Of a stretch of DNA of 64,000 nt, positions 3,447 to 25,927 are shown piece after piece; positions within the stretch are counted from its first letter, which is position 1, and every line of letters begins with the position of its first letter. The notes under the pieces were generated by a model that saw only the letters and a program-made list of their open reading frames with translations, did no database searches and was not told where the DNA came from. The stretch is from positions 1,488,001 to 1,552,000 of the forward strand of contig LR590468.1 of the NCBI GenBank assembly GCA_901472505.1. Reading direction: 5' to 3'. Source of the stretch: Proteus vulgaris. GTDB lineage: Bacteria; Pseudomonadota; Gammaproteobacteria; Enterobacterales; Enterobacteriaceae. A program made the position numbers and the translations under genes.

Positions 3447-3506
3447 TTAACCGCCAATTGGGCGTATGATAACCAACCAGAACAGTCAACTATTGAGCAA
3501 GACGAT

Positions 3507-4085
3507 ATGATTACTATTACTGATGCCGCACAGGCGCATTTTGCCAAACTACTGGCTAACCAAGAACCCAACACCCAAATCCGTGTATTCGTTATCAATC
3601 CAGGCACACCTAATGCTGAATGTGGTGTTTCATACTGCCCACCGGATGCTGTAGAACCAAACGATACTGAAATTCAATTTGAGAAACTGTCTGCGTATGT
3701 TGATGATATCAGTGCACCTTTCTTAGAAGATGCTGAAATCGACTTTGTTACTGACCAACTAGGCTCACAATTAACCCTAAAAGCCCCTAACGCAAAAATG
3801 CGTAAAGTTGATGCTGATGCACCGTTAATTGAACGCGTTGAATACGTATTGCAATCACAAATTAACCCTCAATTAGCGGGTCATGGGGGTCGCGTGAGTC
3901 TGATGGAAATCACTGAAGATGGCTATGCTATCTTACAATTCGGTGGTGGTTGTAACGGTTGTTCAATGATTGATGTCACCCTAAAAGATGGCATCGAGAA
4001 AGAACTGTTAAACCTGTTCCCTAATGAATTAAAAGGTGTGAAAGATTTAACTGAACACCAACGTGGTGAACACTCCTACTACTGA
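3507..4085 (+). CDS. nfuA: NfuA, Fe-S cluster carrier protein
   Basis: The 192-residue protein delivers 4Fe-4S clusters to apo-enzymes, especially under oxidative stress or iron limitation. Residues 1-100 form a degenerate A-type carrier domain that lacks the full set of cysteines. The C-terminal Nfu domain carries the CxxC cluster site [10 protein letters not shown] with Cys149 and Cys152, the same positions as in E. coli NfuA. It follows gntX by 60 bases and is closed by a strong terminator. Confidence 0.95.
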
Positions 4086-9732: not shown

Positions 9733-10323
9733 TTACTCACCAAAGTGATAGGGTTTTTCTACTGGCAATAGGCTGTATGCAGTATCGAGATCACCATTCG
9801 CAATACACGCATCTATTTTATGTACCTTATCAGTAATATCCGTAATATTTACAATCCACTCTTTACAATATTTTTCAACTGCTTGATTTCGTAAACCAAT
9901 TTGGATAGTACGGTAGCTGAGTCGATTGAGGTAAATATCGCGTTCAGGATCCCACTGAATGCGGATATTACTCGTTTCCGAAGCCTCTTTCCACGCTTCA
10001 GCACTGACATAGCGATCTGGGTCAAAATGACTTACAACGCCTTGTGTCAGCATCTCTTGAAAGCCTTCATGCGTAATATCAACTGCAAGAATAGAAGCTT
10101 GATTAGCGTCTTTACGTCCCCATCCAGAGCGGTACATCATCCAAAGAAAGGAGGGTTTAACCCACGTCATACGGGTCATACTAAAAGGGGGCGAAACAAA
10201 TGTTCCGTTTGCGACTGCGCTCTGAGCAATAGTATTAGAATAGGCTTGGTAAACACGAACAAAATCATCCGTATAATATGCCCTTACTTCACACTCAGGA
10301 CATCGGTCAACATCATCGTTCAT
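9733..10323 (-). CDS. DUF4291-family protein
   Basis: This 196-residue soluble protein belongs to a widespread family without known function. Its signatures are visible: VRAYYTDDFVRVYQAYS near the N-terminus, then MTRMTWVKPSFLWMMYRSGW and the later QWDPERD and LSYRTIQIGLR. It has no signal peptide or membrane helix. It is a single gene on the minus strand, 47 bases from metF in convergent orientation. No neighbour hints at a role. Confidence 0.82.
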   Translation of the reverse strand: MNDDVDRCPECEVRAYYTDDFVRVYQAYSNTIAQSAVANGTFVSPPFSMTRMTWVKPSFLWMMYRSGWGRKDANQASILAVDITHEGFQEMLTQGVVSHFDPDRYVSAEAWKEASETSNIRIQWDPERDIYLNRLSYRTIQIGLRNQAVEKYCKEWIVNITDITDKVHKIDACIANGDLDTAYSLLPVEKPYHFGE

Positions 10324-10579: not shown

Positions 10580-11584
10580 TCACTGGGTAGAAATTAGACG
10601 CTCGATAAGCTGTGTTTTTATCAATGCAGGGGATTTAACTGCGGTGCCTGCTATCTTTGCAGACATTATTTCAAAGGCTTTTTCGACCAATAAAGCCTCA
10701 TCTTGCTTCATTGACCACACATTATTAGGTAAAAAACTTAACATCACATGGTCATCGAATGTACCAATATGAAGATATGCCGGAATAACGCCTTCACGTT
10801 GACGAATAACACTTAATAGGCCTTCAAGAATAGGCAGTGATGAGGCAATAAAATGAGACGGTATTTGCTGATGTTGCTCTAAATACTGTTTCATCATCTG
10901 TTCACCATCTTTAGTTGTATTATGTTCAGCATAAGAAACCGTTACACGACTATCATCGCCATAATGCCCTTTTATTGCTTGTACATAACCTCGTAAACGC
11001 GCTGCAATGGTGGGCAGTAGCGCATCTCCCGCAAAAAAATGGATTGGCGCATCTTGCTTTATCATCGCTCTTGTCAGTTGAGCTCCACTGTCGCAGTTAT
11101 CTGATGCCACACAAATAGCATCACTCACAGAAAAGTCTCTATCTAAGAAAACGAGAGGTTTTTGACGATGTTTAACATGGTGTAACTGATTTTTTCGGCT
11201 GGATGAAACAATAAAAATACCATCAACGTTGCGTTCATCCATTGATTTAACAAGTTTATTTTCATTTTTGATATCACCATAAGTACAACTAATGGTGAGT
11301 TGGCAACCAATTTGGTGACAATGCATCTCCAGCTTTTCAGCTAGAGCAGCAAAAAATGGGTTAGAGAGACGAGGGACAACTAATCCATAAGTATCTGTTT
11401 TATTAAGTTTTAAGCTTCTTGCTGCATGATTAACGGTATAACCAAATACCTCAACATAATCCGCTATTTTCTTTTGCGTTTTTGCACTGATCCGGTATTG
11501 ATCACCTTTGCCATTTAATACCAATCTGACTGTGGTAATAGACAAATTCAGGTCATTTGCAATCTGTTCAACTGTTTTTGCCAT
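10580..11584 (-). CDS. LacI-family transcriptional regulator of the adjacent catabolic operon
   Basis: This 334-residue repressor has an N-terminal LacI helix-turn-helix (TVEQIANDLNLSITTVRLVL, residues 4-23) and hinge (NHAARSLKLNKTDTYGLVVP), then a periplasmic-binding-protein-like effector domain. It lies 57 bases behind the tctA-like gene and is probably the last gene of the operon, so it would be autoregulated. The ligand is likely an intermediate or the substrate of the pathway. A 20-base palindrome with central TCGA at 20032-20051, in front of the kinase gene, is the best operator candidate. Confidence 0.85.
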   Translation of the reverse strand: MAKTVEQIANDLNLSITTVRLVLNGKGDQYRISAKTQKKIADYVEVFGYTVNHAARSLKLNKTDTYGLVVPRLSNPFFAALAEKLEMHCHQIGCQLTISCTYGDIKNENKLVKSMDERNVDGIFIVSSSRKNQLHHVKHRQKPLVFLDRDFSVSDAICVASDNCDSGAQLTRAMIKQDAPIHFFAGDALLPTIAARLRGYVQAIKGHYGDDSRVTVSYAEHNTTKDGEQMMKQYLEQHQQIPSHFIASSLPILEGLLSVIRQREGVIPAYLHIGTFDDHVMLSFLPNNVWSMKQDEALLVEKAFEIMSAKIAGTAVKSPALIKTQLIERLISTQ

Positions 11585-11641
11585 TAATATTCCATCATTG
11601 ATATTGTTGCCCTCATCTTAATGATGAGGGCCAGTTAACCT

Positions 11642-13159
11642 TTACTGAGCAGGTTTAGCTCGGCATTTCTTCCACATTGTTTTTAACGAAGGTCCAATAA
11701 TTGGCAGGATCAACGTCAATATTGCAATACCTAAAAATGTCGCAGTAATTGGGCGTGTATAGAGAATGGATAAATCCCCCTGAGACATCATTAAAGCACG
11801 ACGTAAGTTTGATTCTGCCATCGGCCCTAAAATAATCCCGATAACCACCGGAGACATGGAAAAGTCGAGCTTTATCATAATATAAGCTAACAATCCCGCA
11901 CCCATCATTACAAATACATCAATGATGCTATGGTTTACAGAATAAGCACCAACACTACACAATACAAAGATAATAGGCACTAATACACGACGTGGCACAT
12001 CCATCACTCGAACAAAGAGCTTCATACATAAGAAACCTAAGATACCGAGGAAAATATTCGCCACCATTAAACCAATAAAAACGCTGTTTACTTCAACAGG
12101 ATTGTCAGTAAAAAGCTGAGGCCCTAATGCCAATCCTTGAACCATAAATGCCCCCATAATAATGGCAGTTGCGCCATCACCTGGGATACCTAAGGTCATT
12201 AAAGGCACCATGGTTCCACCTGTTACTGAGTTTGCACCCGCTTCTGGCGCTGAAACACCTTCAGGTGAACCGTGACCAAATTCTTCAGGGTGTTTAGACC
12301 AACGTTTCGCTTCGTTATAAGAGATAAATGATGATATATCTCCCCCCGTTCCTGGAATTGCGCCAATCGTTGTACCAATGGCTGATGAGCGGAAGTACGT
12401 TGGTAACACACGTTTAAAATCAGCCCATGTTGGTAATACACGGTGAATACGCGCATTAATTTTTTCACTCTTCTTCTGTTTGCGCTCACGGTACTCTTCT
12501 TCAAAGCTAATCAAACCTTGAGAGAAAGCGAACAAACCAACCAAAATAGGAATAAACGAAACACCCCCCATTAAATAAACGGTATCAAAAGTAAAACGAG
12601 GCCCTGATGTCATCGGATCAAGTCCAATGGTTGCAATCACAAGCCCTATTGCGCCACCCATTAATCCTTTCACAATCGATTGCGATGATACACTGGTAAT
12701 AATACTTATGCCAAATACTGCAAGTGCAAAATACTCAGCTGCAGAGAAACCCGTCGCCACTTTTGCCAATTGAGGGGCTATCACAATTAAGGCAATCGTA
12801 CTAAAGATCCCCCCAAACATAGACCCCATTGTGGATAAGCCCAGTGCTCGTCCTGCTTCTCCTTTTTTCGCCATTGGATAACCGTCTAATACCGTTGCAG
12901 CAGAAGCGGGAGTACCCGGCGTACTAATCAAGATCGCGGTAATTGAGCCACCATACACGGCACCACAATACATTCCTAATAACAGAAGTATTCCTGTCAT
13001 TCCTTGGAAGGAGTAGGTTAATGGGAGTAGCAATGCAATACCCATATTCACTGTTAAACCGGGTAATGCGCCGATAATAATACCCGCGAACACCCCTAAC
13101 AGGATCATCGTTATCGTTTCCAGAGTGAAAACGACCATTAAAGCGTCTAATATTTCCAT
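11642..13159 (-). CDS. TctA-family large permease of a tripartite carboxylate transporter
   Basis: This 505-residue inner-membrane protein has about twelve hydrophobic helices and the TctA signatures GALPGLTVNMGIALLLPLTY near residue 30 and IPGTGGDISSFISYNEAKRW near residue 265. These loops bind the carboxylate substrate in the family. With the TctB- and TctC-like proteins encoded just upstream it forms a secondary transporter driven by an ion gradient. Such systems import organic acids such as citrate, and here more likely a sugar acid, given the neighbouring sugar enzymes. It starts 19 bases after the tctB-like gene. Confidence 0.88.
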   Translation of the reverse strand: MEILDALMVVFTLETITMILLGVFAGIIIGALPGLTVNMGIALLLPLTYSFQGMTGILLLLGMYCGAVYGGSITAILISTPGTPASAATVLDGYPMAKKGEAGRALGLSTMGSMFGGIFSTIALIVIAPQLAKVATGFSAAEYFALAVFGISIITSVSSQSIVKGLMGGAIGLVIATIGLDPMTSGPRFTFDTVYLMGGVSFIPILVGLFAFSQGLISFEEEYRERKQKKSEKINARIHRVLPTWADFKRVLPTYFRSSAIGTTIGAIPGTGGDISSFISYNEAKRWSKHPEEFGHGSPEGVSAPEAGANSVTGGTMVPLMTLGIPGDGATAIIMGAFMVQGLALGPQLFTDNPVEVNSVFIGLMVANIFLGILGFLCMKLFVRVMDVPRRVLVPIIFVLCSVGAYSVNHSIIDVFVMMGAGLLAYIMIKLDFSMSPVVIGIILGPMAESNLRRALMMSQGDLSILYTRPITATFLGIAILTLILPIIGPSLKTMWKKCRAKPAQ

Positions 13160-13178
13160 CTCAAAGCTCCTTTACCGC

Positions 13179-13640
13179 TTATTCAAAAAAGACGGAAGTT
13201 GGCAGAGGTGAATTAAAGATAATGTCAAAGAAGACATAAACGGCAGCAACCATCACAACGGGAATAACAACCAATGCAATAGGTTTTCTTTCATTCATCA
13301 GCCACATAATGACTGGGATAAGAAGCAGTGACGGAACAATAAAACCAAAAAAGTGCAAACCCGTGGCATAGACCAACATAAAGAGGCCTAAACCATAAGC
13401 GCGTTTAACTGCAGTAGAACTTAGATCAACAGACTTATGTACGTGTTTAATTTTATCAACCACAATACTGATCCATTGAAAAATCCCCAGTAAAATAAAT
13501 AAGATGGCTAAACCATAAGGCCAGAAACGTTCCCCTGGTACACCATAATCATCAAACATGCTCATATCACGGGAGAGATAGATAATAAGTGCCCCGAAAG
13601 CCACTGAAATCGCACCGATGATTGTATTGATTTTTGTCAT
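13179..13640 (-). CDS. TctB-family small permease
   Basis: This 153-residue protein has four predicted membrane helices, roughly residues 4-22, 38-60, 84-110 and 118-145. Size, topology and position between the large permease and the binding protein identify it as the small subunit of a tripartite tricarboxylate transporter. Sequence conservation in this subunit family is low, so the call leans on context. A hairpin at 13656-13681 separates it from the binding-protein gene. Confidence 0.8.
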   Translation of the reverse strand: MTKINTIIGAISVAFGALIIYLSRDMSMFDDYGVPGERFWPYGLAILFILLGIFQWISIVVDKIKHVHKSVDLSSTAVKRAYGLGLFMLVYATGLHFFGFIVPSLLLIPVIMWLMNERKPIALVVIPVVMVAAVYVFFDIIFNSPLPTSVFFE

Positions 13641-13655
13641 GTCGGGATCTCCCCG

Positions 13656-13681
13656 ACCCTACCTGCCGTAACAGGTAGGGT
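13656..13681 (-). promoter_or_regulatory. Intercistronic hairpin between tctC- and tctB-like genes
   Basis: A perfect 10-base stem (ACCCTACCTG / CAGGTAGGGT) with a 6-base loop lies just after the stop of the binding-protein gene. No T run follows on the coding strand, so it is unlikely to terminate. It could protect the upstream message from 3' decay, giving more binding protein than permease. Confidence 0.55.
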
Positions 13682-13701
13682 GGTTTATAATAATAGAAAA
13701 G

Positions 13702-14676
13702 TTATTTTTTCAGGGTTGCTGAAATTAACTCAGCATACATCTCGTGGTCTTCTTTCATCATTTGGTAAGCATCATCACCAGTGATAAATACAGGCATAAT
13801 ACCTTGTTTTTTCAGTGCTTCTTGATACTCTGGTTTTTGAACAACTTCAGAGAATGCACCCACTAACTCATTTTTCACGTTATCTGGTACGCCTGCTGTT
13901 GTTGCTAAAACGGCCCAAGCACGCATTTTCACGTTAGTATCTAATTTCAGCGCTTCTTTAAAGGTTGGTACTGCTGGGAATAATGGGAAACGACGCTCAT
14001 CCATTACACCAAGAACGCGTAAAATACCCGCATCAACCTGAGATTTAACCGCACCTGGTGTGGTCAACACGCCATCAATATGGTTACCCACTAATGCTGC
14101 GATTGAAGGGCCTGTCCCTTCGTTATAAGGAATATGATTAAATTTAGTACCTGTAGTACGTTCGATATTCACACCTGCTAGATGGAAAATTGCGCCCATA
14201 CCTGAGTTACCCACTTTTAACTTACCTGGGTTTGCTTTAGCACCATCAATAAACTCTTGTAACGTTTTATAAGGTGAATCGGCATTAACAACTAATACCA
14301 CAGGATCGGCAATTGTTGTTGCAATTGGCGTAAAGTCTTTATAAGTAACCGGTGATTTACCTTGATGTGGGAACATTGCTAATTCAACGGTAGTCATCAC
14401 TAATTTCGTACCATCTGGACGTGCATTTGCAACTTCAATTAGCCCTGTTAAACCATTACCAGCGGGTTTATTGACTGGCACGAAAATACGGCCTGCCGGC
14501 ATCACATCTTTAGCAAATTCAGTAATAGTACGCGCTGAAGTATCAGTACCACCCCCCGGATTTTTCGGGATAATGACATCAATATTTTTTGTAGGATACG
14601 TTAACTGTTGGGCAACTGCATTCCCCATGCCCAGTGTCATCGTAATCGCCAACGCTGCGAGTAGACTCTTTTTCAT
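13702..14676 (-). CDS. TctC/Bug-family periplasmic solute-binding protein
   Basis: This 324-residue receptor has a typical signal peptide (MKKSLLAALAITMTLGMGNAVAQQ), with cleavage expected after AVA. The mature part begins YPTKNIDVIIPKNPGGGTDTSAR, the classic Bug/TctC opening. The start at 14676 follows GGAGAAAGGG; an upstream extension of the frame lacks a ribosome site. These receptors bind carboxylate ligands through water-mediated contacts with two loops. It hands the substrate to the TctB/TctA-like permease encoded next. Confidence 0.9.
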   Translation of the reverse strand: MKKSLLAALAITMTLGMGNAVAQQLTYPTKNIDVIIPKNPGGGTDTSARTITEFAKDVMPAGRIFVPVNKPAGNGLTGLIEVANARPDGTKLVMTTVELAMFPHQGKSPVTYKDFTPIATTIADPVVLVVNADSPYKTLQEFIDGAKANPGKLKVGNSGMGAIFHLAGVNIERTTGTKFNHIPYNEGTGPSIAALVGNHIDGVLTTPGAVKSQVDAGILRVLGVMDERRFPLFPAVPTFKEALKLDTNVKMRAWAVLATTAGVPDNVKNELVGAFSEVVQKPEYQEALKKQGIMPVFITGDDAYQMMKEDHEMYAELISATLKK

Positions 14677-14696
14677 AAAACCCTTTCTCCACATTT

Positions 14697-15749
14697 TTAT
14701 TGAGTAGCCATTAGTTGCTGATAAACAATGTTTTTTCGATTCCAAGTAAAGGTCACGTGTAGGGTATTGTTTTCAGCAACAATAGCCGGATATGAAAATT
14801 CGCCTTCCCCATCGAGTAAATCGAATGGTTCAGACCAAGTACTGCCATTATCGGATGAAAGACTGACAGAGATGGGATAACGACGGCTCCAGTTACCTGA
14901 ATTCGGGTTATACACCAATGCCAGCTGACCATCTGCGAAGGAGACGACATCAATGCCGCTATTATTATTTGGTAATATTGTTGCATAAGCCGGACACCAA
15001 TTGCGTCCATAATCCGTTGAGTCGCTACGATAAATAGTACCGCGCGTACTCCGCATCATGGCATGCACATGCCCAGGCTGGGATTCCCATAGTGTTGGTT
15101 GTATCACGCCATCCCATTGAAAAACACGTTGTAGATCAGTCTCCCATAAGGCATCATCCTTTAAACCTTGCCAGATTTCATGTTCCGTTTGCCCACCTTT
15201 ATGATGTTCAATCGGAATATCCACTCGCAACCAGTGTTGGCCGTTGTCACTCGATATATCGACAAACGCATCCCAGAATTGGTCATCCTCAACCGAACCT
15301 GGTGCCAACCACTCGCCATTCGACATCACTAACACTTTATTTTTCACAGGACCTCTAGGTGCTACATCACCAGAAACCAATTCACTCGGTAAACTCCAGC
15401 TATTTCCGCCATCCTTCGAGATAACGTATTGGGTCGTCCAACTATGTACATCGGGACCCGTTTTATAAAACAGCCAGATATTACCTGTTGATGGGTCAAC
15501 ATGTAAAACTGGATTCCAGTGCGCAACACCCGGATTTTTAACAACAGGTTGAGCGTGTTGCCAATGATCGCCCTCTTTTAGCGCCAGCCAGATAGCGGTA
15601 TTACCGCTACCTTCTTTATCGCCAGCAAAAAAAGCGGTTAACAAACGCTCAGAGTTAGGCACACGCACAATCGTTGAAGCATGGCAGTGATTAAAAAGTG
15701 AATGCGCATTATCAAGCACAAACTGGGTTTCCTTCATCACGAAAGGCAT
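14697..15749 (-). CDS. Sialidase-like six-bladed beta-propeller hydrolase (cytoplasmic)
   Basis: This 350-residue protein carries four Asp-box motifs (SKDGGNSW 111-118, SSDNGQHW 166-173, STDYGRNW 244-251, SSDNGSTW 298-305), which mark a sialidase-type propeller. There is no signal peptide, so it acts inside the cell on imported material. Families of this fold remove sialic acid, Kdn or Kdo from glycosides. The context (carboxylate transporter, pyruvate aldolase of the NanA class) fits release of an ulosonic acid. It starts behind AGGAG, 22 bases after the aldolase gene. The exact specificity is unknown. Confidence 0.75.
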   Translation of the reverse strand: MPFVMKETQFVLDNAHSLFNHCHASTIVRVPNSERLLTAFFAGDKEGSGNTAIWLALKEGDHWQHAQPVVKNPGVAHWNPVLHVDPSTGNIWLFYKTGPDVHSWTTQYVISKDGGNSWSLPSELVSGDVAPRGPVKNKVLVMSNGEWLAPGSVEDDQFWDAFVDISSDNGQHWLRVDIPIEHHKGGQTEHEIWQGLKDDALWETDLQRVFQWDGVIQPTLWESQPGHVHAMMRSTRGTIYRSDSTDYGRNWCPAYATILPNNNSGIDVVSFADGQLALVYNPNSGNWSRRYPISVSLSSDNGSTWSEPFDLLDGEGEFSYPAIVAENNTLHVTFTWNRKNIVYQQLMATQ

Positions 15750-15771
15750 ATTCCTACTCCTGTGTCCTAAA

Positions 15772-16704
15772 TTAATCTAACGAAAGCCACTTCTTCATAT
15801 TTTCACCTAATGCAGTCATGCTATTGACGGCAGAAGGGAAAAATGAGTTTTCAAACTGACTGCTGTTACGGGAACGGCAGACTAGAGTGCTGAAATTACC
15901 AATCAGGCGCTGATGATATTTAGCGCATGCTGGATAATCCAGTGTTTCGGTCATCGCTGCTGTTGATAAATAATCAGCTAATACTGCAGCCTGCTCCGGT
16001 TTATCCTTCCAATTTTCATAAAGCCAAACATAAAGCTCTGGATGGAAGTTAGCCATAACACCGCTATATGCCTGACATCCTGCTTGGAATGAAGCTAATA
16101 GCGTTTGGCTATTGGCGTTTGCAAGGTGCAAGCGAGTTCCTTTTGATAATGCCAAACGACGCTCTATCATGGGTAGAGAACAGCAGGTGTCTTTAATAAA
16201 AGTAAAGCGATTACTTTGCGCACACCACTCTACAATCTCTTCAGATAACAAGCGTTTGTAAGGATGAGGGCATTCATAAATGCCCAAATCAATCTCTTTT
16301 GGTACCACATTGGTTAAGACTTGCAGTGTTTCCAGCGCTTTATCATCTGAATCACCAATAAGCGCTAAGCGATTACTGATCATAATGACGCCATCGACAC
16401 CTGTACCCGCCATTGCCTGCAATTGTTCTTTTTGCTGACTTAATGCGGTTGCAGTATGACCCGAAGCCACTACAGGTACTCTTCCATCTGCTTTTTCAAC
16501 GATAAAGCGGGTAAGTGCTTGAGTTTCCTCATCACTTAAATAAAACATTTCGCTTGATTGGCAGGCGGCGAAGAGTCCATGTACACCAGAATCGATATAC
16601 CAGTCTACAAGGCGCTCTAACGACGCCCAATCAATCTCCCCTTTGGCATCAAAAGGGGTTAGCATAACAGGCCAAACACCGACGTATTTTTGCTGGCTCA
16701 TCAT
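15772..16704 (-). CDS. Dihydrodipicolinate synthase / N-acetylneuraminate lyase family aldolase
   Basis: This 310-residue TIM-barrel class I aldolase forms a Schiff base with pyruvate. The catalytic lysine is in FIKDTC and the catalytic tyrosine in GIYECPHPY. The usual GTTGE carboxylate loop reads CQSSE here, so substrate handling differs from DapA. The start at 16704 or 16701 follows AAGGA; the frame is open 9 codons further without a ribosome site. Members cleave ulosonic acids to pyruvate and an aldose. Between an isomerase and a sialidase-like gene, a catabolic aldolase is more likely than lysine synthesis. Confidence 0.83.
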   Translation of the reverse strand: MMSQQKYVGVWPVMLTPFDAKGEIDWASLERLVDWYIDSGVHGLFAACQSSEMFYLSDEETQALTRFIVEKADGRVPVVASGHTATALSQQKEQLQAMAGTGVDGVIMISNRLALIGDSDDKALETLQVLTNVVPKEIDLGIYECPHPYKRLLSEEIVEWCAQSNRFTFIKDTCCSLPMIERRLALSKGTRLHLANANSQTLLASFQAGCQAYSGVMANFHPELYVWLYENWKDKPEQAAVLADYLSTAAMTETLDYPACAKYHQRLIGNFSTLVCRSRNSSQFENSFFPSAVNSMTALGENMKKWLSLD

Positions 16705-16711
16705 CAATTCC

Positions 16712-18358
16712 TTACAGTAGATTAATGGCATCGCCTGCCACTTTCACTTGAATACCTTGAGTCAATGCTTGAGCAACAAAGGCTTTAAGCACAAACGCCA
16801 ATTTATCTTCATCAATGTAAGCCACAGTAATGTGATTACTTTGATGTCCCGCCATAAGGTCATCACGCGTTACGCCATCTAACGTACAGTTTAATAATGG
16901 CCATTCGTAGTTGGTTGCTCTACGGCGACGTTCAAATTCTGCTTCAGGTAATTCTACCGCCACACCCGTACCGATATGCATAATCACATCAGTGCCTTCA
17001 TAGTGTGCACGAGCCCATAACAAGCGCCCTGCTTTACCTTGACCGGCGATAGTTGATCCCCCTTTAGGGAAGAACATCGGAGGCTGACGATAACCTGTTG
17101 CACCTTTTAAGCCACCTTTGAGGTGTTCAAAAGGAACCGAACCTGAAATTTCCATATCCCAGTAGAATGTTCCTTCGTACTCACTCCCCCAACGGATGTC
17201 ATGCAGTGTGGTTTCTGCCGGTAATCCTAATGATGTTAATAAACGCCATAACATCGTTTGAGGAATAGCCGTCCCCATGTCCACTTCGTTGATACAAGGG
17301 ATTGGCGTGTTAGGGCAGATAATTTCACCGTTTTCATCTGGCAGTGGGAAACGTGCTGTCGAACCAATAGCTCCTTCTGCAAAGTCAGACGCTGGGCAAC
17401 AATCTTTTAAGCCCTGCTGATATTGCACACCTACCGCAGTTAAACCAAAACGTTTTACGAAACGCGCCATTGCAATCATCATGGCGCACTGCTCCATCAC
17501 TTGTTCACGAGTAAGTTCAGTTTTGTCATCTTGACCAAACATAAACGTCATCCCGTTATCCTCGTACCACTGTAAGCACGCCTCTCTTAATTCTGTCGGT
17601 ACTTTCGCCATTTCGACCAGTAACGCAGATTGAGAAAGGGATTCAATTGGCATACCAATATTGATCATGGCCTGTTGTGGGAAGACCCCATTAATCATTC
17701 CCATACAGAATGTATCGAACAAACCTATTATTTCTTTATTTTTAATTATGTATTCGCCGACTTTACGACCCACTTCGCCGGCTTCTGTCGCCATTACCCT
17801 GTGTGTTGGCGCAATATCTGTAAGATAGTTAAGCTTATGATTTACATAACCATATTTTAACCAAGTCGCTAAACCATCTACAAAAAATTCATCATCAAAT
17901 GCTTCTGACCATAAACGTGAATAATTTTTACCTAAACTGGTCATCGTCCCTGCTAAACACAACATCCCCACCAAACCCGGCCATGTACCATCAAAGTTAG
18001 CCAGCAGTAAAATAGGACCGCGATGGTGTGCTAACGAAGAGGCAATATGGTGTGAATATTGCCATGCGGTTAATAACACGATAACCGGTGCATCAGGATC
18101 GATAGCGGCAAACATATCGCAACCTTCACGCTGACTACTGATAAAACCATGACCACGTGCTTCATTAATTTCATGAGCACGCTTCATTTTGTAACCTTGA
18201 GCTTCTAATGCTGCGGCCAGTTTATCTTCAAATTTTTTCTGAACAGGCCAGCACGTTACGTTCGCAGGCTCACGTAAGTCTGCGTTAGTGACCATCAGGA
18301 TCTCTTTCTGACCTGCTGTGATGGTTGTCGGTAATTTCGGTAGATTTAAGTTCAACAT
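16712..18358 (-). CDS. L-fucose / D-arabinose isomerase-family protein
   Basis: This 548-residue protein resembles the FucI family, manganese enzymes that interconvert aldoses (L-fucose, D-arabinose) and ketoses. Metal-ligand regions are visible: INEVDMGTAIPQTML (the Asp) and HQSNHITVAY near residue 520 (the His). It is somewhat shorter than E. coli FucI (591). The start at 18358 follows AGGGA. It ends 8 bases before the aldolase start and lies 50 bases behind the pentulose kinase. FucI proteins also accept D-arabinose, which fits the kinase next to it. Confidence 0.8.
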   Translation of the reverse strand: MLNLNLPKLPTTITAGQKEILMVTNADLREPANVTCWPVQKKFEDKLAAALEAQGYKMKRAHEINEARGHGFISSQREGCDMFAAIDPDAPVIVLLTAWQYSHHIASSLAHHRGPILLLANFDGTWPGLVGMLCLAGTMTSLGKNYSRLWSEAFDDEFFVDGLATWLKYGYVNHKLNYLTDIAPTHRVMATEAGEVGRKVGEYIIKNKEIIGLFDTFCMGMINGVFPQQAMINIGMPIESLSQSALLVEMAKVPTELREACLQWYEDNGMTFMFGQDDKTELTREQVMEQCAMMIAMARFVKRFGLTAVGVQYQQGLKDCCPASDFAEGAIGSTARFPLPDENGEIICPNTPIPCINEVDMGTAIPQTMLWRLLTSLGLPAETTLHDIRWGSEYEGTFYWDMEISGSVPFEHLKGGLKGATGYRQPPMFFPKGGSTIAGQGKAGRLLWARAHYEGTDVIMHIGTGVAVELPEAEFERRRRATNYEWPLLNCTLDGVTRDDLMAGHQSNHITVAYIDEDKLAFVLKAFVAQALTQGIQVKVAGDAINLL

Positions 18359-18408
18359 AAGATATCCCTGGTAAGGTAAACTCGGTTCATAATCGGAAAA
18401 ACAGGTGG

Positions 18409-19995
18409 TCAGCAATCTGACATCATTTCGTTATAACGCTGCTGATCTTGATACATCTGCAAGTAAACTTGGTATTTAGCTTGATGGAAGGCGAATGTGT
18501 CGCTATCGGGTGTGATAATGCCACCTTCTCGTACCATCGCGCTGGCTGCTTTTGAGAAATCATCAAAGGCTTTGCAAGCAACCGCACCTAATAATGCAGC
18601 CCCTAAATTCACCGCATCCTCTTCTTGTGCTAAATGAATTTCACGACCTGTCGCATTGGCGTATTCGCGTAGCCACAATGGATTTTTCGTCGCGCCACCA
18701 CACATCACAATGCGATTAATTTGATGTCCTGCATCTTCAAGCGTATCGATAATATGACGTGTACCGTAAGCAATAGATTGCAGTGTGGCCAGATAATAGC
18801 GCGCTAATGCAACTCGGCCACTTTCAAGCGTTAATCCACTCACCATGCCTTTTGCTGCAGGATTGGCGCGTGGAGAACGATTACCATGATGATCAGCTAA
18901 AACATGGAACTGTGCGGTTGGGTATTGTTCAATTTCTTCTAATTCAGCCACCGCTTCGTTCAATAAGACATAGTAATTAACGCCTTTTTCTTTTGCTTCT
19001 TGTTCTAAGTCAGCCCATGACTCATGACGGCGGATAGACCATTCAACTAACGCACCAGCAGCACTTTGACCGCCTTCGTTTAGCCATAAATCGGGTAACA
19101 TCGCGCCAAAGTAAGGCCCCCAAACACCGGGTACCATAATGGGATATTGGCTTATAATCATATGACAGTTAGACGTACCACTGATAATCGCCAAACTCCC
19201 TTCAGGTTGTGATGCCGTTAATGCCAAACCACCCGCATGCGCGTCAATAATGCCTGAAGCGACAATCACCCCCTTGTGCAGGCCAAATGCATTGGCAACA
19301 GACTCATTTAAACAACCCGCTTGTTCACCTAATGCCAGAATGGTTTGAGGTACTTTTTCTAATAATTCATCCAACCCTACATCGGCTAACAAACTTTCAC
19401 TAAATTGCCCCTGATGTGCTAAATAGTTCCATTTACAGGTTAATGTGCAGGTGCTTGCCACATCCCCTGTTGTTGCTTTCCACACTAAAAAGTCAGCTAA
19501 ATCAAAGAATCGCCATACGTTTTGATAACGCTCTGGGTAATGATTTTTTAACCACAGAATTTTGGGCAATTCCATTTCAATACTCACTTCACCACCGACA
19601 TATCGTAGCGAAGGATCATTAGTCAGGTTGATAGTTACCGTTTCTTGTACAGCTCGGTGATCCATCCACATGATGATATCTTGCTCTGCCTTTCCACTTG
19701 GTGAAACGGAAAGTCCTTTGCCGTCTTTACCCACTGCAACCAAAGAACAAGTGGCATCAAAACCAATAGATTTCACATGGATAGGATCAATAGCAGATAA
19801 CGTCACCGACTCTTTTACGGTCGTGCAAACCTGCTGCCAAATATCGGTGGACGATTGCTCAACGAAATCCGTTTTCGGACGGAATTGAGCAATAGGGCGA
19901 ACCGAAAAGCCTAAACGCTTTCCATTGCTATCAAATACCGCTGCACGGACACTGGCTGAGCCAACATCAACGCCAATAAAATATTGTTGTTCCAT
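18409..19995 (-). CDS. FGGY-family pentulose kinase, probable D-ribulokinase
   Basis: This 528-residue sugar kinase phosphorylates a ketopentose. The ATPase fold begins with YFIGVDVGSASVRAAVFD; WMDHRA, GGATKNPLW and the C-terminal NLGAALLGA are kinase landmarks. Residues 82-86 read TCSLV, a motif I recall as diagnostic of D-ribulokinases among FGGY proteins. The protein follows that subfamily closely along its length (DFVEQSSTDIW, CTLTCKWNYLAH). The start at 19995 follows GAGGG. It is the first gene of the operon; D-ribulose 5-phosphate would enter the pentose phosphate pathway. Confidence 0.82.
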   Translation of the reverse strand: MEQQYFIGVDVGSASVRAAVFDSNGKRLGFSVRPIAQFRPKTDFVEQSSTDIWQQVCTTVKESVTLSAIDPIHVKSIGFDATCSLVAVGKDGKGLSVSPSGKAEQDIIMWMDHRAVQETVTINLTNDPSLRYVGGEVSIEMELPKILWLKNHYPERYQNVWRFFDLADFLVWKATTGDVASTCTLTCKWNYLAHQGQFSESLLADVGLDELLEKVPQTILALGEQAGCLNESVANAFGLHKGVIVASGIIDAHAGGLALTASQPEGSLAIISGTSNCHMIISQYPIMVPGVWGPYFGAMLPDLWLNEGGQSAAGALVEWSIRRHESWADLEQEAKEKGVNYYVLLNEAVAELEEIEQYPTAQFHVLADHHGNRSPRANPAAKGMVSGLTLESGRVALARYYLATLQSIAYGTRHIIDTLEDAGHQINRIVMCGGATKNPLWLREYANATGREIHLAQEEDAVNLGAALLGAVACKAFDDFSKAASAMVREGGIITPDSDTFAFHQAKYQVYLQMYQDQQRYNEMMSDC

Positions 19996-20031: not shown

Positions 20032-20051
20032 TTGCTACTTCGAGTTAGCAA
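20032..20051 (-). promoter_or_regulatory. Candidate LacI-family operator of the kinase-led operon
   Basis: TTGCTACTTCGAGTTAGCAA is a 20-base palindrome with 16 of 20 symmetric positions and a central TCGA, the usual style of LacI-family operators. It lies 36 bases before the kinase start. A further TTGCTAAC at 20011-20018 forms a second inverted pair with GTTAGCAA at 20044-20051. Confidence 0.6.
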
Positions 20052-20111: not shown

Positions 20112-20429
20112 ATCAATAATATAAGTTATTGATTTTAATGGTAATTTATTTATTCCACTTTATTGGTAATTGAAGTGTAGAACTGAATCGATTATATTCG
20201 TTATAAATATAACGAACATTTAATGAATGATTGAGTGAAAATACTTATTAGAATATTAATAGGATTATCATAAAATGATTTTATTAAAAGATATCTCACT
20301 AATAATTAAAAATATTATTTAAAAAAGAATCAGACACTAAAAATAATCATCTTCCTATTGTTATAACTTCCCATTGTTTTATTTTTAATAAGTTAATTTA
20401 AATTTATACATTCATTTTTGGAGCATTTG
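20112..20429. other. AT-rich intergenic stretch between the kinase operon and the small secreted protein gene
   Basis: This stretch is very AT-rich and presumably contains the divergent promoters. I see no open frame of note, no RNA structure and no repeat that can be supported. Confidence 0.5.
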
Positions 20430-20861
20430 ATGATGTTGAAAAATATTGCTGTCAGTCTCTCTCTACTGCTTATTTCCTCTTCTGCTTTTTCAGTGTCATT
20501 AGCAGAAAAAGAATTATATAAAAAATTTGAAGAGAATATTCAATCTCGTGTTGTCGATTTAAATAAAAGCTGCGATACCAATATAAAAGTGGCTTTTGAT
20601 TGGTCTGCATTTACTGCTGATGATTTAAAAACAATAGGGATTGATAGTTATTGTAGCGAGGGGCTAAAAGGTGTAATAAATACCTGTGGAAGCTCAAAAG
20701 TCGCACAAGAGACAGTAAAAGAAAAAATACAAAACATTACCTGCTCTAAAGCCACGCCTCGCAGTATTGAACTTAAAGAAGGTACACTGGATTTTGGTAT
20801 TGATTTTAATGCCTCAAATGATGCAAAAGCCGTACAAGAACACTTAATGAATAATCTCTAA
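20430..20861 (+). CDS. Small secreted protein of unknown function
   Basis: The protein has 143 residues. Residues 1-22 (MMLKNIAVSLSLLLISSSAFS) are a clear signal peptide, so the mature protein of about 120 residues is periplasmic or secreted. Four cysteines (SCDTN, YCSEG, TCGSS, ITCSK) could make two disulfides. The start at 20430 has GGAG upstream at 7 bases; an in-frame TTG at 20418 is less likely. I do not recognise a family. It is a single gene, divergent from the sugar operon and convergent with the nickel importer. Confidence 0.7.
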   Translation: MMLKNIAVSLSLLLISSSAFSVSLAEKELYKKFEENIQSRVVDLNKSCDTNIKVAFDWSAFTADDLKTIGIDSYCSEGLKGVINTCGSSKVAQETVKEKIQNITCSKATPRSIELKEGTLDFGIDFNASNDAKAVQEHLMNNL

Positions 20862-20912: not shown

Positions 20913-21665
20913 TTAGATAACAGACTGAATAAGTTTTTTAGAATAGTCATGTGTAACATTACCTAATTTATTTATCTCACATAATTCCATCTTTTTTCCT
21001 TGTAAAAAAAACATTACTTTATCGCAAAAATAAGCGACTGTTTGAATATCATGACTAATAAAAAGATAAGATAATTGGAATTCATCTTTTAATTGTTTTA
21101 ATAAATCTAATATCTGCACTTGCGTAGGAATATCTAACGAGCTCAATGCCTCATCTAATACAATCAATTTAGGGTAAGAGGCTAATGCGCGACATAAACA
21201 TACACGTTGCGCCTGCCCTCCTGACAGCTCATAAATATAACGTTGATAACAATTTTTAGGTAATCCCACTTTATCTAAAAAAGAAAAAATAAGGTTTTCT
21301 AACGCCTGACGATGAATACTTGGATAGTGTATTTTTACTGGCTCAGCAATAATTTCGCCAACCGTTAATGTAGGATTAACCGATGTTGTATAATCTTGGA
21401 AAACAATGCTAATAATACCTTGGCGATGGAGTCGTTTTGTCACCGATTTATTATTCAAATAAATAGCACCACAATCTGGTAATTCTAATCCACAAATTAA
21501 ACGTGCCAAGGTGCTTTTACCACTGCCACTCTCTCCCACTAAACCAAAAGCTTCACTCGCATTAATATTAAAAGAGAGTGTGTCGATAACCTTCACTTTC
21601 TCACCTAATAGGGTGTTATTTTTTTGAATATAAAATTTACTAATATTCTCAACGTTTAATAACAT
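20913..21665 (-). CDS. nikE: NikE-like ATPase of the nickel/peptide-type ABC importer
   Basis: This 250-residue ABC ATPase of the oligopeptide/nickel group has Walker A GESGSGKST near residue 44, signature LSGGQAQRV near residue 150 and Walker B LIVLDEALSSLD. It forms a heterodimer with the NikD-like ATPase and powers import through the NikB/NikC-like permeases. It is the last gene of the operon, 24 bases behind nikD, and ends at the shared terminator. Nickel specificity is inferred from the binding protein. Confidence 0.8.
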   Translation of the reverse strand: MLLNVENISKFYIQKNNTLLGEKVKVIDTLSFNINASEAFGLVGESGSGKSTLARLICGLELPDCGAIYLNNKSVTKRLHRQGIISIVFQDYTTSVNPTLTVGEIIAEPVKIHYPSIHRQALENLIFSFLDKVGLPKNCYQRYIYELSGGQAQRVCLCRALASYPKLIVLDEALSSLDIPTQVQILDLLKQLKDEFQLSYLFISHDIQTVAYFCDKVMFFLQGKKMELCEINKLGNVTHDYSKKLIQSVI

Positions 21666-21689
21666 AACAACTCTTTTATAATGATGATA

Positions 21690-22505
21690 TTAAAATGTTT
21701 TTTTATTAATCAATTGCGCAAAACGTAATGAAAGCTGTTTTCTAGCATTAATTAAATAACGCGTATATGCTTGTGTTGGTGAGGTTAAAACGCTTATTTT
21801 CTCACCATATTCAACCATTCTCCCCTCTTGCATCACGACGATATCATCGGCAATTTCATTAACTAGCCCTAAATCATGAGAAATAAACATGAGTGTTGAA
21901 TGACGTGTTGTCACCACATATTGCAAGAGCTTTAAAATATCTCGACGAAGAGGCGCATCAAGCGCCGTTGTTGGTTCATCTGCAATTAATAATTTAGGTG
22001 ACAAGGCGAGTGCAATCGCAATCATCACACGCTGTAACTGCCCACCACTTAGTTGATGAGGAAAAGCCTGCATAATAGATTGAAATTGAGTAGGAAAAAC
22101 ATGAGATAGTGCCAACTGGGTTTCTTCCAGTGCTTGTTTTTTAGTATAGGAAAAATGGTAGATTAAAGTTTGGCTCATTTGCTTTCCTATTTTCATCAAA
22201 GGATCAAACGCACTCATACCATTTTGGACAATCACACCTAAAGAGGTTCCCAATAAAGCTCGATGTTGAAAATGTATCTCATCACTTATCTTCTGTCCCT
22301 CAAAGAAAATACGCCCAGACATCGCCAATGACTCTGGTAGTAATCCCATAATGGCTTTACTGATCACACTTTTCCCACTACCACTTTCACCAACAATAGC
22401 CAATGTACGCCCTTGCTGTATTGAGAAAGAAATATCCTCAATCAGTGTCTTTCCACTTTCTTTATGATAAATAGAAACATGCTCAAGCGTCAGTAAGTTG
22501 TTCAT
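21690..22505 (-). CDS. nikD: NikD-like ATPase of the nickel/peptide-type ABC importer
   Basis: This 271-residue ABC ATPase has Walker A GESGSGKSV near residue 38, signature LSGGQLQRV and Walker B LLIADEPTTALD. The C-terminal tail with EYGEKISVLTSPTQAYTRYL is the usual extension in the Opp/Nik ATPases. The start overlaps the end of the nikC-like gene by 23 bases, which indicates coupled translation. Confidence 0.8.
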   Translation of the reverse strand: MNNLLTLEHVSIYHKESGKTLIEDISFSIQQGRTLAIVGESGSGKSVISKAIMGLLPESLAMSGRIFFEGQKISDEIHFQHRALLGTSLGVIVQNGMSAFDPLMKIGKQMSQTLIYHFSYTKKQALEETQLALSHVFPTQFQSIMQAFPHQLSGGQLQRVMIAIALALSPKLLIADEPTTALDAPLRRDILKLLQYVVTTRHSTLMFISHDLGLVNEIADDIVVMQEGRMVEYGEKISVLTSPTQAYTRYLINARKQLSLRFAQLINKKTF

Positions 22506-23355
22506 GCTTTTCTCCTACTGACTGACGATTATCGGGATCAAACACATCACGTAAAAAATCCCCCCAAAAGTTAAAAGCGGTGACAACAAGAGTGATAGCA
22601 ATCCCCGCAGGTAGCATTTGCTCTGGGTGTAATACCATGACATTTTTTGCTTCACTAAGCATATTTCCCCATTCGGGGGTCGGTGGTTGTACTCCTAATC
22701 CTAAAAAAGAGAGCGCAGAAATCATTAAAATAACACTGCCAATATCGGTGGATGCTAAGACGATAGTTTCAGCGAAAGTCACAGGTAATAAGTGGCGTCG
22801 TAAAATATGGTGAGAAGGTGCACCAATCACGCGAGCGTAAGCAATATAATTACGGTGCGAATATTGACGAACAACCCCTCTGATCATTCTGGCGTACCAT
22901 GCCCATTTCACTAAAATAACGGCAATTAAAATATTACCAATGCCCGGCCCCATTATTCCCACTAGCGCTAAAATCATAATTTCTGCTGGAAATGACAAAA
23001 CAACATCACATAATCGCATAATTAATGTGTCTGTTTTGCCATGAAAAAAACCAGCTAACATGCCCATTAGCCAACCAATGATTAATGTCACACTCATGGC
23101 TAATAAGGCGTAAAATACCGTAGTCCTTACACCAAATAATAACCTTGAGAAGATACAGCGCCCTAAATTATCCGTACCTAACGGATAATCAAAACTCATA
23201 GGCTTAAATTTCAAACGTATTGAAGTTAAAGTGGGATCATGCGGTGCTAACCAAGGCGCGAATATTCCTGCAATAACCACAATCGTGATCACCAATAAAC
23301 ACCATTGTGCACTTTTGTCTTTTGCAAGTCGTTGCCAAAACAGTTGCCACATCAT
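22483..23355 (-). CDS. nikC: NikC-like inner-membrane permease
   Basis: The permease has 290 residues with about six membrane helices. The N-terminal OppC-type segment (LAPHDPTLTSIRLKFKPMSF then PLGTDNLGRCIFSRLLFGVR) and the loop that meets the ATPases (YIAYARVIGAPSHHILRRHL) are clear. It pairs with the NikB-like permease, whose gene overlaps its start by one base. It belongs to the dipeptide/nickel importer class. Confidence 0.82.
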   Translation of the reverse strand: MMWQLFWQRLAKDKSAQWCLLVITIVVIAGIFAPWLAPHDPTLTSIRLKFKPMSFDYPLGTDNLGRCIFSRLLFGVRTTVFYALLAMSVTLIIGWLMGMLAGFFHGKTDTLIMRLCDVVLSFPAEIMILALVGIMGPGIGNILIAVILVKWAWYARMIRGVVRQYSHRNYIAYARVIGAPSHHILRRHLLPVTFAETIVLASTDIGSVILMISALSFLGLGVQPPTPEWGNMLSEAKNVMVLHPEQMLPAGIAITLVVTAFNFWGDFLRDVFDPDNRQSVGEKHEQLTDA

Positions 23356-24281
23356 TATCTCCTTAACCGTGGATCGGCCATCATTTGAATAACGTCCATC
23401 AGAAAGTTAAAAAAGAGAAATAACAGTGACATCAGCAAAATATAGGCCTGTATCATTGGATAATCACGACCAAATATAGCGCTAATACAAAGTCGTCCAA
23501 TGCCTGGCCATGCAAAAATATTCTCAATCACGACTGTACCGGCAATGAGTTTTGGAATACTCATGCCCAACGCCGTTAAACTGGAATAGAGTGAATTACG
23601 TAAAATATGGCGACGTAAAATAAGGTTATCGGGTAATCCACGCGCTTTGGCATAAAAGACATAAGGCTGATGCCATTGATTTAACATCGTCCCTCTTAAC
23701 AGCCGTAAATAAGTACCGATATACCCTAGAGAGAGTGCCAATGCAGGCAAAATAACAGATTGAGGCGATAACATTCCACTGACAGGAAGCCAATCTAAAT
23801 GAACAGCAACACCCCAAATCAATAGTAATCCCAACCAATAATTAGGAATAGCCGTTAGAATAAAGACAACAAAACGAATGCTTTTATCTGTAAAACCTTG
23901 AGGTTTAGCCACACACCATAATGCTAAAGGCAGTGCTAATATAATCGTAAAGAATAAAGCCGTAGAAGCCAACCAAAGCGTTGGTGGCAACGCTCTTAAC
24001 ATTTCTTGAATAACGGGCGTTCTGGTGAGAAAAGAAGTCCCAAAATCAAGCTGAAACCCAGCTATTAACCATAAAAAATAACGCGTAAAAAAAGGTTTAT
24101 CTAACCCTAATTCATGGCGCATTCCTTCAATGGCTTCGGGAGTGGGAACAATTTCATTGACACGTAATGCCACTTCCGCGGGATCAGACGGTGCTAATTC
24201 CAACAGAATAAAAGCAATAAATGAAATCATCAGCGCCAGCGGAAATATCGCCAATATTCGCCAGATTATATAACGTAGCAT
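23355..24281 (-). CDS. nikB: NikB-like inner-membrane permease
   Basis: This 308-residue OppB-type permease has an N-terminal helix (YIIWRILAIFPLALMISFIAF), the periplasmic segment ELAPSDPAEVALR and the ATPase-contact loop PYVFYAKARGLPDNLILRRH. It is preceded by the binding-protein gene with a 71-base gap that holds a hairpin, and is followed immediately by the nikC-like gene. Confidence 0.82.
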   Translation of the reverse strand: MLRYIIWRILAIFPLALMISFIAFILLELAPSDPAEVALRVNEIVPTPEAIEGMRHELGLDKPFFTRYFLWLIAGFQLDFGTSFLTRTPVIQEMLRALPPTLWLASTALFFTIILALPLALWCVAKPQGFTDKSIRFVVFILTAIPNYWLGLLLIWGVAVHLDWLPVSGMLSPQSVILPALALSLGYIGTYLRLLRGTMLNQWHQPYVFYAKARGLPDNLILRRHILRNSLYSSLTALGMSIPKLIAGTVVIENIFAWPGIGRLCISAIFGRDYPMIQAYILLMSLLFLFFNFLMDVIQMMADPRLRR

Positions 24282-24293
24282 AAAGTTTAATCA

Positions 24294-24322
24294 GTGTGGC
24301 ACCTTTATGTAAACTGCCACAC
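24294..24322 (-). promoter_or_regulatory. Intercistronic hairpin between nikA and nikB
   Basis: GTGTGGCA pairs with TGCCACAC across a 13-base loop, shortly after the nikA stop. No T run follows. It may limit read-through or stabilise the nikA message, as often seen behind binding-protein genes. Confidence 0.5.
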
Positions 24323-24352
24323 CTATCTGAGTGAATGTTATTAACACTTTAA

Positions 24353-25927
24353 TTACGGCTTAAAGTGCATTTTTTCAAACGGTATTTCATATTGAGACGG
24401 ATTAAAGCCAACATTTTCTAATTCACTGCGATGGATAGCCTTAGTACGTGAATAGGTTAATGGGATATAAACCGCTTGATCGGCTAATGACGTAAACAAG
24501 GTTTTATATAATTCCTGACGACGCGCTTCATTAGGTGTAATTAATAACTCACCAATCATGGCATCCAATTGAGCTTTATTTGCCAATCCTTTTTGCCCTT
24601 GATAATCCGCGTGAGCAGGTATTCTAAATGATGAAACAAAAGAAGCCGGATCGTAAGGTGTTCCCCATGAGAGCGAATATTGCAAATCGAAATCACCATT
24701 TTTTTGTCTATCTAAATAGGCTTGTTTTTCTTCACCTAAAATAGTCAAACCAACACCAATCTTTTTAAAATCATCTTGAATGAGTTCAGCAATTTCTTTT
24801 TCTACTGCGTTATTCACGTTGTAAGAGAGTAATAGTTGTAATTTTTGGCCTCCCTTTTCGCGGATTGTTTTACCTTTTGGCAATACCCAACCTTCTGCTT
24901 CTAATAGCTCAATCGCTTTTATTGGCTGGTAACGATACGTTGGAGAGGTAAAGTCACAATAAGGTACACTACGAGCCATTAAGGTATTCGCGACTTTTTC
25001 ACTGCCCGCTAAAATACCTTGTGCAATCCCCTCTTTATCAACCGCATATTGCAACGCTTGACGTACCTTTTGGCTCGATGTCATTTCGCGACTACTATTG
25101 AGAACAATAGCACGAGACGCAATTGGCGCACTCATTTCCGTTTTAAATTTATCTGACGCCATAAGGGCCTCAAATGAATCCATATCTAACATGTCGCCAT
25201 CAGCACCAAAAATAAGCTGAATATCTCCCTTTTGTAGAGAAAGCAACATAGTTTGTCGATCTGGGATCACTCGCCACATGACCCCATTTAATAAGGGCTT
25301 TTCTCCCCAATAATTCGGGTTCGCTTTAAATTCTGCGTATTGGTCTTTTTTATGTTCAGTTAATACCCAAGGTCCCGTACCGATATAGTTCGCAACCCCG
25401 GTTTTTGTTTTACCATTAATAAATGAATTTGGCGAAATAAAACGGAATGGTCGTGTTAAACCCAATTCAGTTAATGTTGGATAGTAAGGATTTTTTAAAT
25501 TTAATTTAACGGTAAATTCATCAACAATTTCAACACTATCAATTTGGCGAACTAACTCTAACCATGCATGACGTTCGTAGTTATCTAGTATGGCATCAAT
25601 ATTTAGTTTTACGGCACTAGCATTAAAGGGCTCACCATCGCTAAAAGTCACATCATGGCGTAAATAAAAAGTATAACTTTTGCCGTCAGGGGAAATATCC
25701 CAACGTTGTGCTAAATAAGGAGCAACACCTTTTTCGGTATTTAATACAAGAGATTCAAATACCATGTTTTGTGCTGCCATCTCGCCAGAATAGAGATGGG
25801 GATTTATATCACGAATATCTTTTGTACTGGCATAATCCAGTATGTTATTGCTTTTATCTGCGAGGACTGGAAATGCACATGCCAGAGTTAATAACAGGGT
25901 TGGGAACACTGAAAATAAAGGTTTCAC
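24353..25927 (-). CDS. nikA: NikA-like nickel-binding periplasmic protein
   Basis: This 524-residue solute-binding protein has a signal peptide ending AFPVLADK. It aligns with E. coli NikA over its length: INPHLYS, RHAWLELVRQIDSV, RPFRFISPNSF, IGTGPWVLTE, SWGTPYDP and IPLTYS are shared. The arginine of RPFRF, near the metal complex in NikA, is kept. The nickel-coordinating histidine in the YDPH segment of E. coli NikA is alanine here (YDPASF), so the bound nickel complex probably differs. Import supplies nickel, for instance for urease and hydrogenase in this type of organism. Confidence 0.82.
   Translation of the reverse strand: MKPLFSVFPTLLLTLACAFPVLADKSNNILDYASTKDIRDINPHLYSGEMAAQNMVFESLVLNTEKGVAPYLAQRWDISPDGKSYTFYLRHDVTFSDGEPFNASAVKLNIDAILDNYERHAWLELVRQIDSVEIVDEFTVKLNLKNPYYPTLTELGLTRPFRFISPNSFINGKTKTGVANYIGTGPWVLTEHKKDQYAEFKANPNYWGEKPLLNGVMWRVIPDRQTMLLSLQKGDIQLIFGADGDMLDMDSFEALMASDKFKTEMSAPIASRAIVLNSSREMTSSQKVRQALQYAVDKEGIAQGILAGSEKVANTLMARSVPYCDFTSPTYRYQPIKAIELLEAEGWVLPKGKTIREKGGQKLQLLLSYNVNNAVEKEIAELIQDDFKKIGVGLTILGEEKQAYLDRQKNGDFDLQYSLSWGTPYDPASFVSSFRIPAHADYQGQKGLANKAQLDAMIGELLITPNEARRQELYKTLFTSLADQAVYIPLTYSRTKAIHRSELENVGFNPSQYEIPFEKMHFKP

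Follow-up and report, generated by a model that had tools for sequence, protein, structure and literature searches.

The window analyzed here is a 64,000-nucleotide stretch of the Proteus vulgaris genome (contig LR590468.1, positions 1,488,001 to 1,552,000; the whole genome is one contig of 3.92 Mb), and its minus strand carries eight closely spaced genes that would together import and degrade a sugar acid, most likely 3-deoxy-D-manno-octulosonic acid (Kdo). The operon proteins were scored against Pfam and NCBIfam models using the cut-offs of the models (Table 1). In the order of transcription, the operon encodes a kinase, an isomerase, an aldolase, a sialidase-fold propeller, the TctC, TctB, and TctA subunits of a carboxylate transporter and a LacI regulator, with intergenic gaps of 50, 10, 34, 20, 61, 19, and 57 bp after the gene starts were trimmed to the likely methionine. 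The listed TTG start of TctC at 14745 overlaps the propeller gene; TctC more likely begins at 14676, where the residues that follow resemble a signal peptide. An earlier note on this DNA had described a minus-strand operon with a pentulose kinase, a DHDPS/NanA-class aldolase and a TctCBA transporter, and these assignments held: all genes lie where it had placed them (10580–19995, gaps of 10–61 bp) in an arrangement conserved in other genomes, the kinase matched TIGR01315 (540.6 bits, cut-off 408.7), the aldolase matched PF00701 (DHDPS, 82.3 bits, cut-off 22.1) and keeps the catalytic Lys and Tyr, and TctA, TctB, and TctC all scored over their cut-offs (28.9, 29.1, and 27 bits, respectively).

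Table 1 Features of the putative ulosonic acid operon, in window coordinates
Feature	Coordinates	Strand	Evidence
FGGY pentulose kinase, probable D-ribulokinase	18409..19995	(-)	TIGR01315, TCSLV, PDB 3gg4
Remote FucI-like aldose isomerase, probable D-arabinose isomerase	16712..18358	(-)	
DHDPS-superfamily aldolase with QSSE motif, proposed Kdo aldolase	15772..16701	(-)	PF00701
Sialidase-fold propeller, without signal peptide by eye	14697..15737	(-)	BNR_2 229.9 bits
TctC solute-binding protein, carboxylate uptake	13702..14676	(-)	PF03401 164.2 bits
TctB small membrane subunit	13179..13640	(-)	PF07331 61.8 bits
TctA large membrane subunit	11642..13159	(-)	PF01970 527 bits
LacI-family regulator	10580..11584	(-)	TIGR02417 229.7 bits, Peripla_BP_4 48.6
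Putative LacI operator GCTAACTCGAAGTAGC	20034..20049	(-)	38 bp upstream of kinase start

Genome contigs were scanned with the isomerase, which yielded 60 loci (10 from Proteus; some cut by contig ends), and neighboring genes were counted within 9 kb of it. The window isomerase is 92–99% identical to the copies in 10 named Proteus records, and the other operon genes 76–99%. The kinase was found at 49 of the 60 loci, a related LacI gene at 51, the window-type aldolase at 40, and the propeller at 32, always together with the aldolase. The neighborhood search suggested in the earlier note recovered the layout of the window (layout A) at 28 loci, 10 of them Proteus. In layout B (4 loci) an MHS-like symporter replaces Tct and the propeller is absent, while layout C (4 loci, also on a Klebsiella plasmid) has the propeller plus this symporter, which scores under the TIGR00883 cut-off. 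In layout D (10 loci, also in E. coli C11; gene families assigned from one locus, L035), the isomerase is accompanied by an SDR, an enolase-superfamily protein, an HbpS-like protein, and an MFS transporter, as well as by a NanA-like aldolase that reaches 271.6 bits to PRK04147 against a cut-off of 281. The window-type aldolase has other neighbors at 4 loci, 10 loci show other arrangements, and a Martelella plasmid bears an aldolase-propeller-Tct set. In searches of genome collections, the isomerase was detected class-wide (E ≤ 1e−20) in its own genome only among 369, the propeller phylum-wide (E ≤ 1e−15) in 2 of 398 including its own, and the aldolase in 10 of 295 genomes of the order (E ≤ 1e−30) and 8 of 398 of the phylum (E ≤ 1e−40). 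Matches occurred in 82 of 5426 E. coli genomes, none reaching 80% of the query; the isomerase part was covered in 10 listed rows, and the single match inspected is layout D. Since it is conserved across 60 loci, the operon is not a chance arrangement, and it is confirmed as a real, conserved unit that reaches far beyond Proteus.

The kinase also matched FGGY_N and FGGY_C, is the sole TIGR01315 match above cut-off in its genome and has 3gg4 as its best PDB match (505.5 bits). The motif TCSLV, which we take to be the D-ribulokinase signature from work on YDR109C/FGGY (our literature search brought up no paper with TCSLV), is present in the window kinase and in 49/49 relatives, as well as in 4/4 kinases of 40–45% identity from other genomes and in 0/4 FGGY kinases of 25–29%. 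The window kinase is thus a probable D-ribulokinase as judged by family and motif. At locus L054, the operon is served by another TIGR01315 kinase, which scores 686 bits and shares 48% identity with that of the window. A D-ribulokinase, RblK, is required for growth of Citrobacter rodentium on D-ribulose (PMC12307932).

In the aldolase, the Schiff-base K170, the active-site Y142 and Q48-S49-S50-E51 (QSSE) are present in 27/27 rows of the alignment, and in the alignment with DHDPS chains K170 and Y142 face their IKD and LYNVP segments. QSSE recurs in 35/35 aldolase relatives and 0/2 outgroup rows, at the position where other DHDPS-superfamily members have GxxGE. The protein does not qualify as NanA (38.7 bits to nanA, cut-off 382; 42.5 to PRK04147, cut-off 281), and its 27-row profile searched against PDB had DHDPS chains on top and dehydratases lower (best 60 of 87). 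N-acetylneuraminate lyases form Kdo from D-arabinose and pyruvate in vitro at 1–1.5% of the rate with N-acetylmannosamine (ManNAc; PMC4016182), so the fold is capable of the Kdo reaction.

A tree of 37 rows (the 35 QSSE proteins and only two outgroup rows, which puts separateness from other DHDPS families outside its reach) resolved three sets: 14 isomerase-linked proteins (80/94), among them L144 with no isomerase in the stretch covered; 4 proteins termed f89 (97/93); and a sister branch of 17 (92/100). In the sister branch, a ribokinase-type kinase lies near the aldolase at 11/17 loci. Two of these kinases (L087, L081) pass the ribokinase cut-off of 299.65 bits, four fall under it (L085, L088, L120, and L147 with 295.4, 239.0, 292.5, and 287.7 bits; the L088 gene is 3 kb off, beyond Tct genes), and by BLAST those of L124, L165, L166, L167, and L169 share 33–85% identity with the kinase of L087 or L081. 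Two sister-branch loci carry a gene of the YhcH/YjgK/YiaL family, which includes a sialic-acid anomerase. HTH_DeoR-PfkB fusions (402–432 aa, regulator plus ribokinase-like kinase) were seen near the aldolase in L081, L085, L088, L029, and L147.

The isomerase reached 27.4 bits to Fucose_iso_C (PF02952, cut-off 29.3), with no NCBIfam match at E ≤ 0.001 and no PDB relative at E ≤ 0.01. Its predicted model has the FucI fold and is closest to FucI/D-arabinose isomerase. The label FucI-like given to it earlier therefore rests on predicted fold and gene context, and not on sequence score; by sequence the kinship is remote. In a weak alignment (hhalign probability 4.8), D387 and H509 pair with D366 and H534 of the FucI from L084, metal ligands by comparison with E. 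coli FucI, and the ligand Glu comes only within two residues of its counterpart. At L055 the isomerase occurs together with FucK (540 bits, cut-off 470.9), FucU (206.5, cut-off 141), and a class II aldolase. In three of the four f89 genomes, a true FucI (886–966 bits to TIGR01089, cut-off 850) shares the stretch with the aldolase, a propeller relative (40% identical) and a FucU relative (125.5 bits in L084, cut-off 141; the L082 and L086 copies are 43–45% identical to it), and L084 and L086 also carry TctCBA; in the fourth, the contig ends early and FucI is on another contig. Against PDB, the L084 FucI scores highest with a D-arabinose isomerase (854 bits), ahead of E. coli FucI with 825. The last step in f89 is perhaps FucK-like. 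L132 (G416, 1474–3681) encodes an FGGY kinase that carries DUF4867 (211.8 bits) as a fused C-terminal domain, and long FGGY frames (719–748 aa) occur in three other f89 genomes. Both annotated records consulted (L142, L143) name the isomerase a signal transduction protein, which looks like a misannotation and would be corrected if the proposed function is true. The isomerase is in two frames or fragmentary in L063, L064, and L067 (decayed copies or assembly errors); Candidatus Symbiopectobacterium endolongispinus and Pseudovibrio denitrificans each have it split in two, and in Hafnia psychrotolerans a fragment of it adjoins a TctA fragment.

The propeller has the sialidase propeller fold, that of GH33 hydrolases. 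In HMMER alignments R229, R286, and Y316, invariant in 20/20 rows, fall on the sialidase Arg, Arg, and Tyr that serve in catalysis as Arg2, Arg3, and nucleophile. Outside these alignments, with positions assigned by eye from the usual sialidase spacing, Q213 would stand at the sialidase Glu and H19 at Arg1 (each 20/20), and E42 near the acid/base Asp. Because no signal peptide was seen by eye, the protein is probably cytoplasmic.

The LacI regulator scored under the TIGR02417 cut-off (389.55 bits) and over that of Peripla_BP_4 (35.1). A palindrome near GCTAACTCGAGTTAGC (≤ 1 mismatch) lies at the first operon gene in 44/60 loci, spanning layouts A, B, C, and D and five Pseudovibrio loci, and 8/10 layout-D loci have further copies, one ahead of the MHS-like symporter and one, bearing a single mismatch, close to the LacI gene. 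At this threshold it was absent in 9/28 layout-A loci and 7 others, including L054 and L055. The window copy has one mismatch, and its count was not above chance (2 strand matches of one palindrome, equaled in 42/100 shuffles); the genome has 11 sites per strand vs. 8 for the reversed pattern. The evidential weight thus lies only in the fixed place at the first gene in 44/60 loci, many of them related. As the putative operator is common to these loci, most layouts would belong to one regulon. Near 20 kb, promoter-like sites occurred no more often than in shuffled sequence, and the search for a terminator was negative.

Taken together, we read the operon as encoding the breakdown of a C8 3-deoxy-2-ulosonic acid, for which Kdo is the likeliest identity, with a probability of about 0.7. 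The pentulose kinase and its ribokinase-type counterparts point to a five-carbon product and therefore an eight-carbon acid, so the aldose released is very probably a pentose, and the FucI-type isomerase alongside it makes D-arabinose the most likely one. Kdo is the abundant 3-deoxyulosonate that yields D-arabinose; it is reached by elimination, and a C4 epimer or another C8 3-deoxyulosonate would fit the data equally. TctCBA would import the acid, either free or as a small glycoside, and the propeller would act on a glycosidic or anomeric form in the cytoplasm, which is the weakest step. The aldolase, with its Schiff-base Lys in place, would split the free acid by retro-aldol cleavage into pyruvate and D-arabinose; judging by family, motif, and context, the FucI-like isomerase would turn D-arabinose into D-ribulose and the kinase would deliver D-ribulose 5-phosphate to the pentose phosphate pathway. 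The LacI protein would repress transcription via the upstream GCTAAnnCGnnTTAGC. This route, as proposed earlier, gains support at its core because the downstream genes are swapped for equivalents in other genomes (FucI plus a FucU relative for the isomerase in f89, ribokinase-type kinases in the sister branch, the other TIGR01315 kinase in L054), while Kdo itself is the candidate left by elimination.

Several findings weigh against this pathway. The kinase is not within 9 kb at 11/60 isomerase loci, some of them truncated by the end of the contig; six of the ten loci with layout D fall in this group. A close D-ribulokinase is missing from the f89 genomes, where identity reaches 27% at best. 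At 6/17 sister-branch loci no ribokinase-type gene was seen nearby (five have none in the stretches covered, and L053 has a PfkB with no NCBIfam match at E ≤ 1e−20). Compared as profiles, the isomerase and the L084 FucI match weakly (hhalign probability 4.8, E 0.0083), and one genome (G199) has both a window-type operon and a true FucI. All aldolase scores to known families are low, the nearest including dehydratase models (KdgD 65.8 bits, PRK03620 66.4) next to dapA (62.0), and L-2-keto-3-deoxyarabonate dehydratase is among its PDB matches. In the propeller, two standard catalytic residues of sialidases, the Glu and the first Arg, seem to be replaced, and the GH33-type activity ascribed to it in the earlier note is accordingly not upheld.

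The last point bears on a variant in which the route runs as proposed and the propeller, no hydrolase, works on the imported ulosonic acid as an anomerase, a lactonase, or an intramolecular lyase. We consider this a real possibility, if short of an even one: Gln for Glu and His for the first Arg in all 20 rows (by-eye reading), the YhcH or FucU relatives in the layouts of L147, L166, and L051, in which a propeller was not observed, and the four layout-B loci lacking it speak for a non-hydrolytic role, whereas the two retained Arg, the Tyr nucleophile position and the GH33 hydrolase fold, together with f89 stretches that hold both propeller and FucU relative, argue against it. Another alternative for the aldolase is a sugar-acid dehydratase, with isomerase and kinase processing free D-arabinose alongside. 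KdgD and PRK03620 do outscore nanA, and the arabonate dehydratase match agrees with it; however, all these scores are far under family cut-offs with dapA close behind, the 27-row profile favors DHDPS chains over dehydratases, and most loci with the aldolase have an aldose isomerase or kinase, as a retro-aldol reaction needs, so that this appears quite improbable.

The same enzyme logic could also serve another 3-deoxy-2-ulosonic acid, i.e., a Kdo epimer or a C9 acid yielding L-fucose. FucI-type enzymes accept both L-fucose and D-arabinose, L055 pairs the isomerase with FucK, and f89 genomes combine FucI and a FucU relative with the absence of a close D-ribulokinase; against this, the TCSLV pentulose kinase and the ribokinase-type partners of the sister branch point to a pentose, and an abundant C9 acid that yields L-fucose is not known to us, which renders this reading unlikely. 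Catabolism of sialic acid (N-acetylneuraminic acid, Neu5Ac) is barely conceivable despite the sialidase fold and an aldolase of the NanA/DapA superfamily: the operon has no NanE or NanK, a pentulose kinase has no place in the Neu5Ac route, and NanE (292.5 bits) sits about 4 kb from another DHDPS-family gene elsewhere in the genome. Neu5Ac, which the earlier note had already judged a poor fit, was rejected as a substrate on these grounds.

Ulosonic-acid catabolism by an aldolase is already known, and a Kdo-type operon would be its new form. The nan operon (NanA, NanE, NanK, NanT; sialidase) likewise has a same-superfamily aldolase that frees pyruvate from an ulosonic acid, a carboxylate importer, and a sialidase-fold partner, but here an aldose isomerase and a pentulose kinase handle the product instead of NanK/NanE, the aldolase is far under the nanA cut-off and has QSSE, and the propeller is altered and without signal peptide. 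The lack of a signal peptide (by eye) also sets it apart from GH33 sialidases, as does the apparent replacement of the Glu and first Arg. Kdo is a constituent of almost every Gram-negative lipopolysaccharide and also of rhamnogalacturonan II in plants, and we know of no gene set for its catabolism nor of a gene for EC 4.1.2.23 (3-deoxy-D-manno-octulosonate aldolase), whose reaction is the one proposed here. Our literature search on Kdo catabolism, Kdo aldolase, and this gene set found no description, with most subscription journals outside its reach. EC 4.1.2.23 was ranked as difficult in a 2007 table of orphan activities (PMC1940265). D-arabinose use via FucI and a D-ribulokinase (DarK; PMC12307932 for the kinase) shares the isomerase and kinase chemistry; the difference is that D-arabinose would here arise in the cell from an ulosonic acid and that the isomerase is distant from FucI. 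The Rbl D-ribulose system of C. rodentium also has a dedicated FGGY D-ribulokinase, but with an ABC transporter and a KpsF-like isomerase, and an aldolase is not among the Rbl parts named in the accessible portion of PMC12307932. If the reading is true, the operon points to genes for a Kdo-splitting enzyme long known as an activity only; it offers an orphan aldolase candidate with a conserved operator and interchangeable downstream modules, a question testable with one purified enzyme.

A broader scheme, tentative and as a single package rather unlikely, would treat the QSSE aldolases as the missing EC 4.1.2.23 genes within a regulon set for C8 sugar acids. Layouts A–C would serve Kdo and Kdo glycosides, with the propeller as a new, sialidase-derived family of cytoplasmic Kdo-glycosidases, and the ribokinase branch would yield D-arabinose 5-phosphate, a precursor of Kdo synthesis. 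Layout D would serve D-glycero-D-talo-oct-2-ulosonic acid (Ko), which would be reduced to octonate, dehydrated to 3-deoxyoctulosonate and then cleaved, its SDR, enolase-superfamily dehydratase and NanA-like aldolase standing in for the QSSE aldolase.

Around the operon, a DUF4291 protein (245.1 bits) adjoins it at 9733–10323 on the minus strand, and 20418–20861 on the plus strand encodes a small protein that begins like a signal peptide and matches nothing in Pfam. By sequence inspection, a minus-strand operon at 20913–25927 encodes a dipeptide/nickel-type ABC transporter (two ATPases, two permeases, and a solute-binding protein), and an S-adenosylmethionine (SAM) methyltransferase-like gene lies beside it at 25947–26726.

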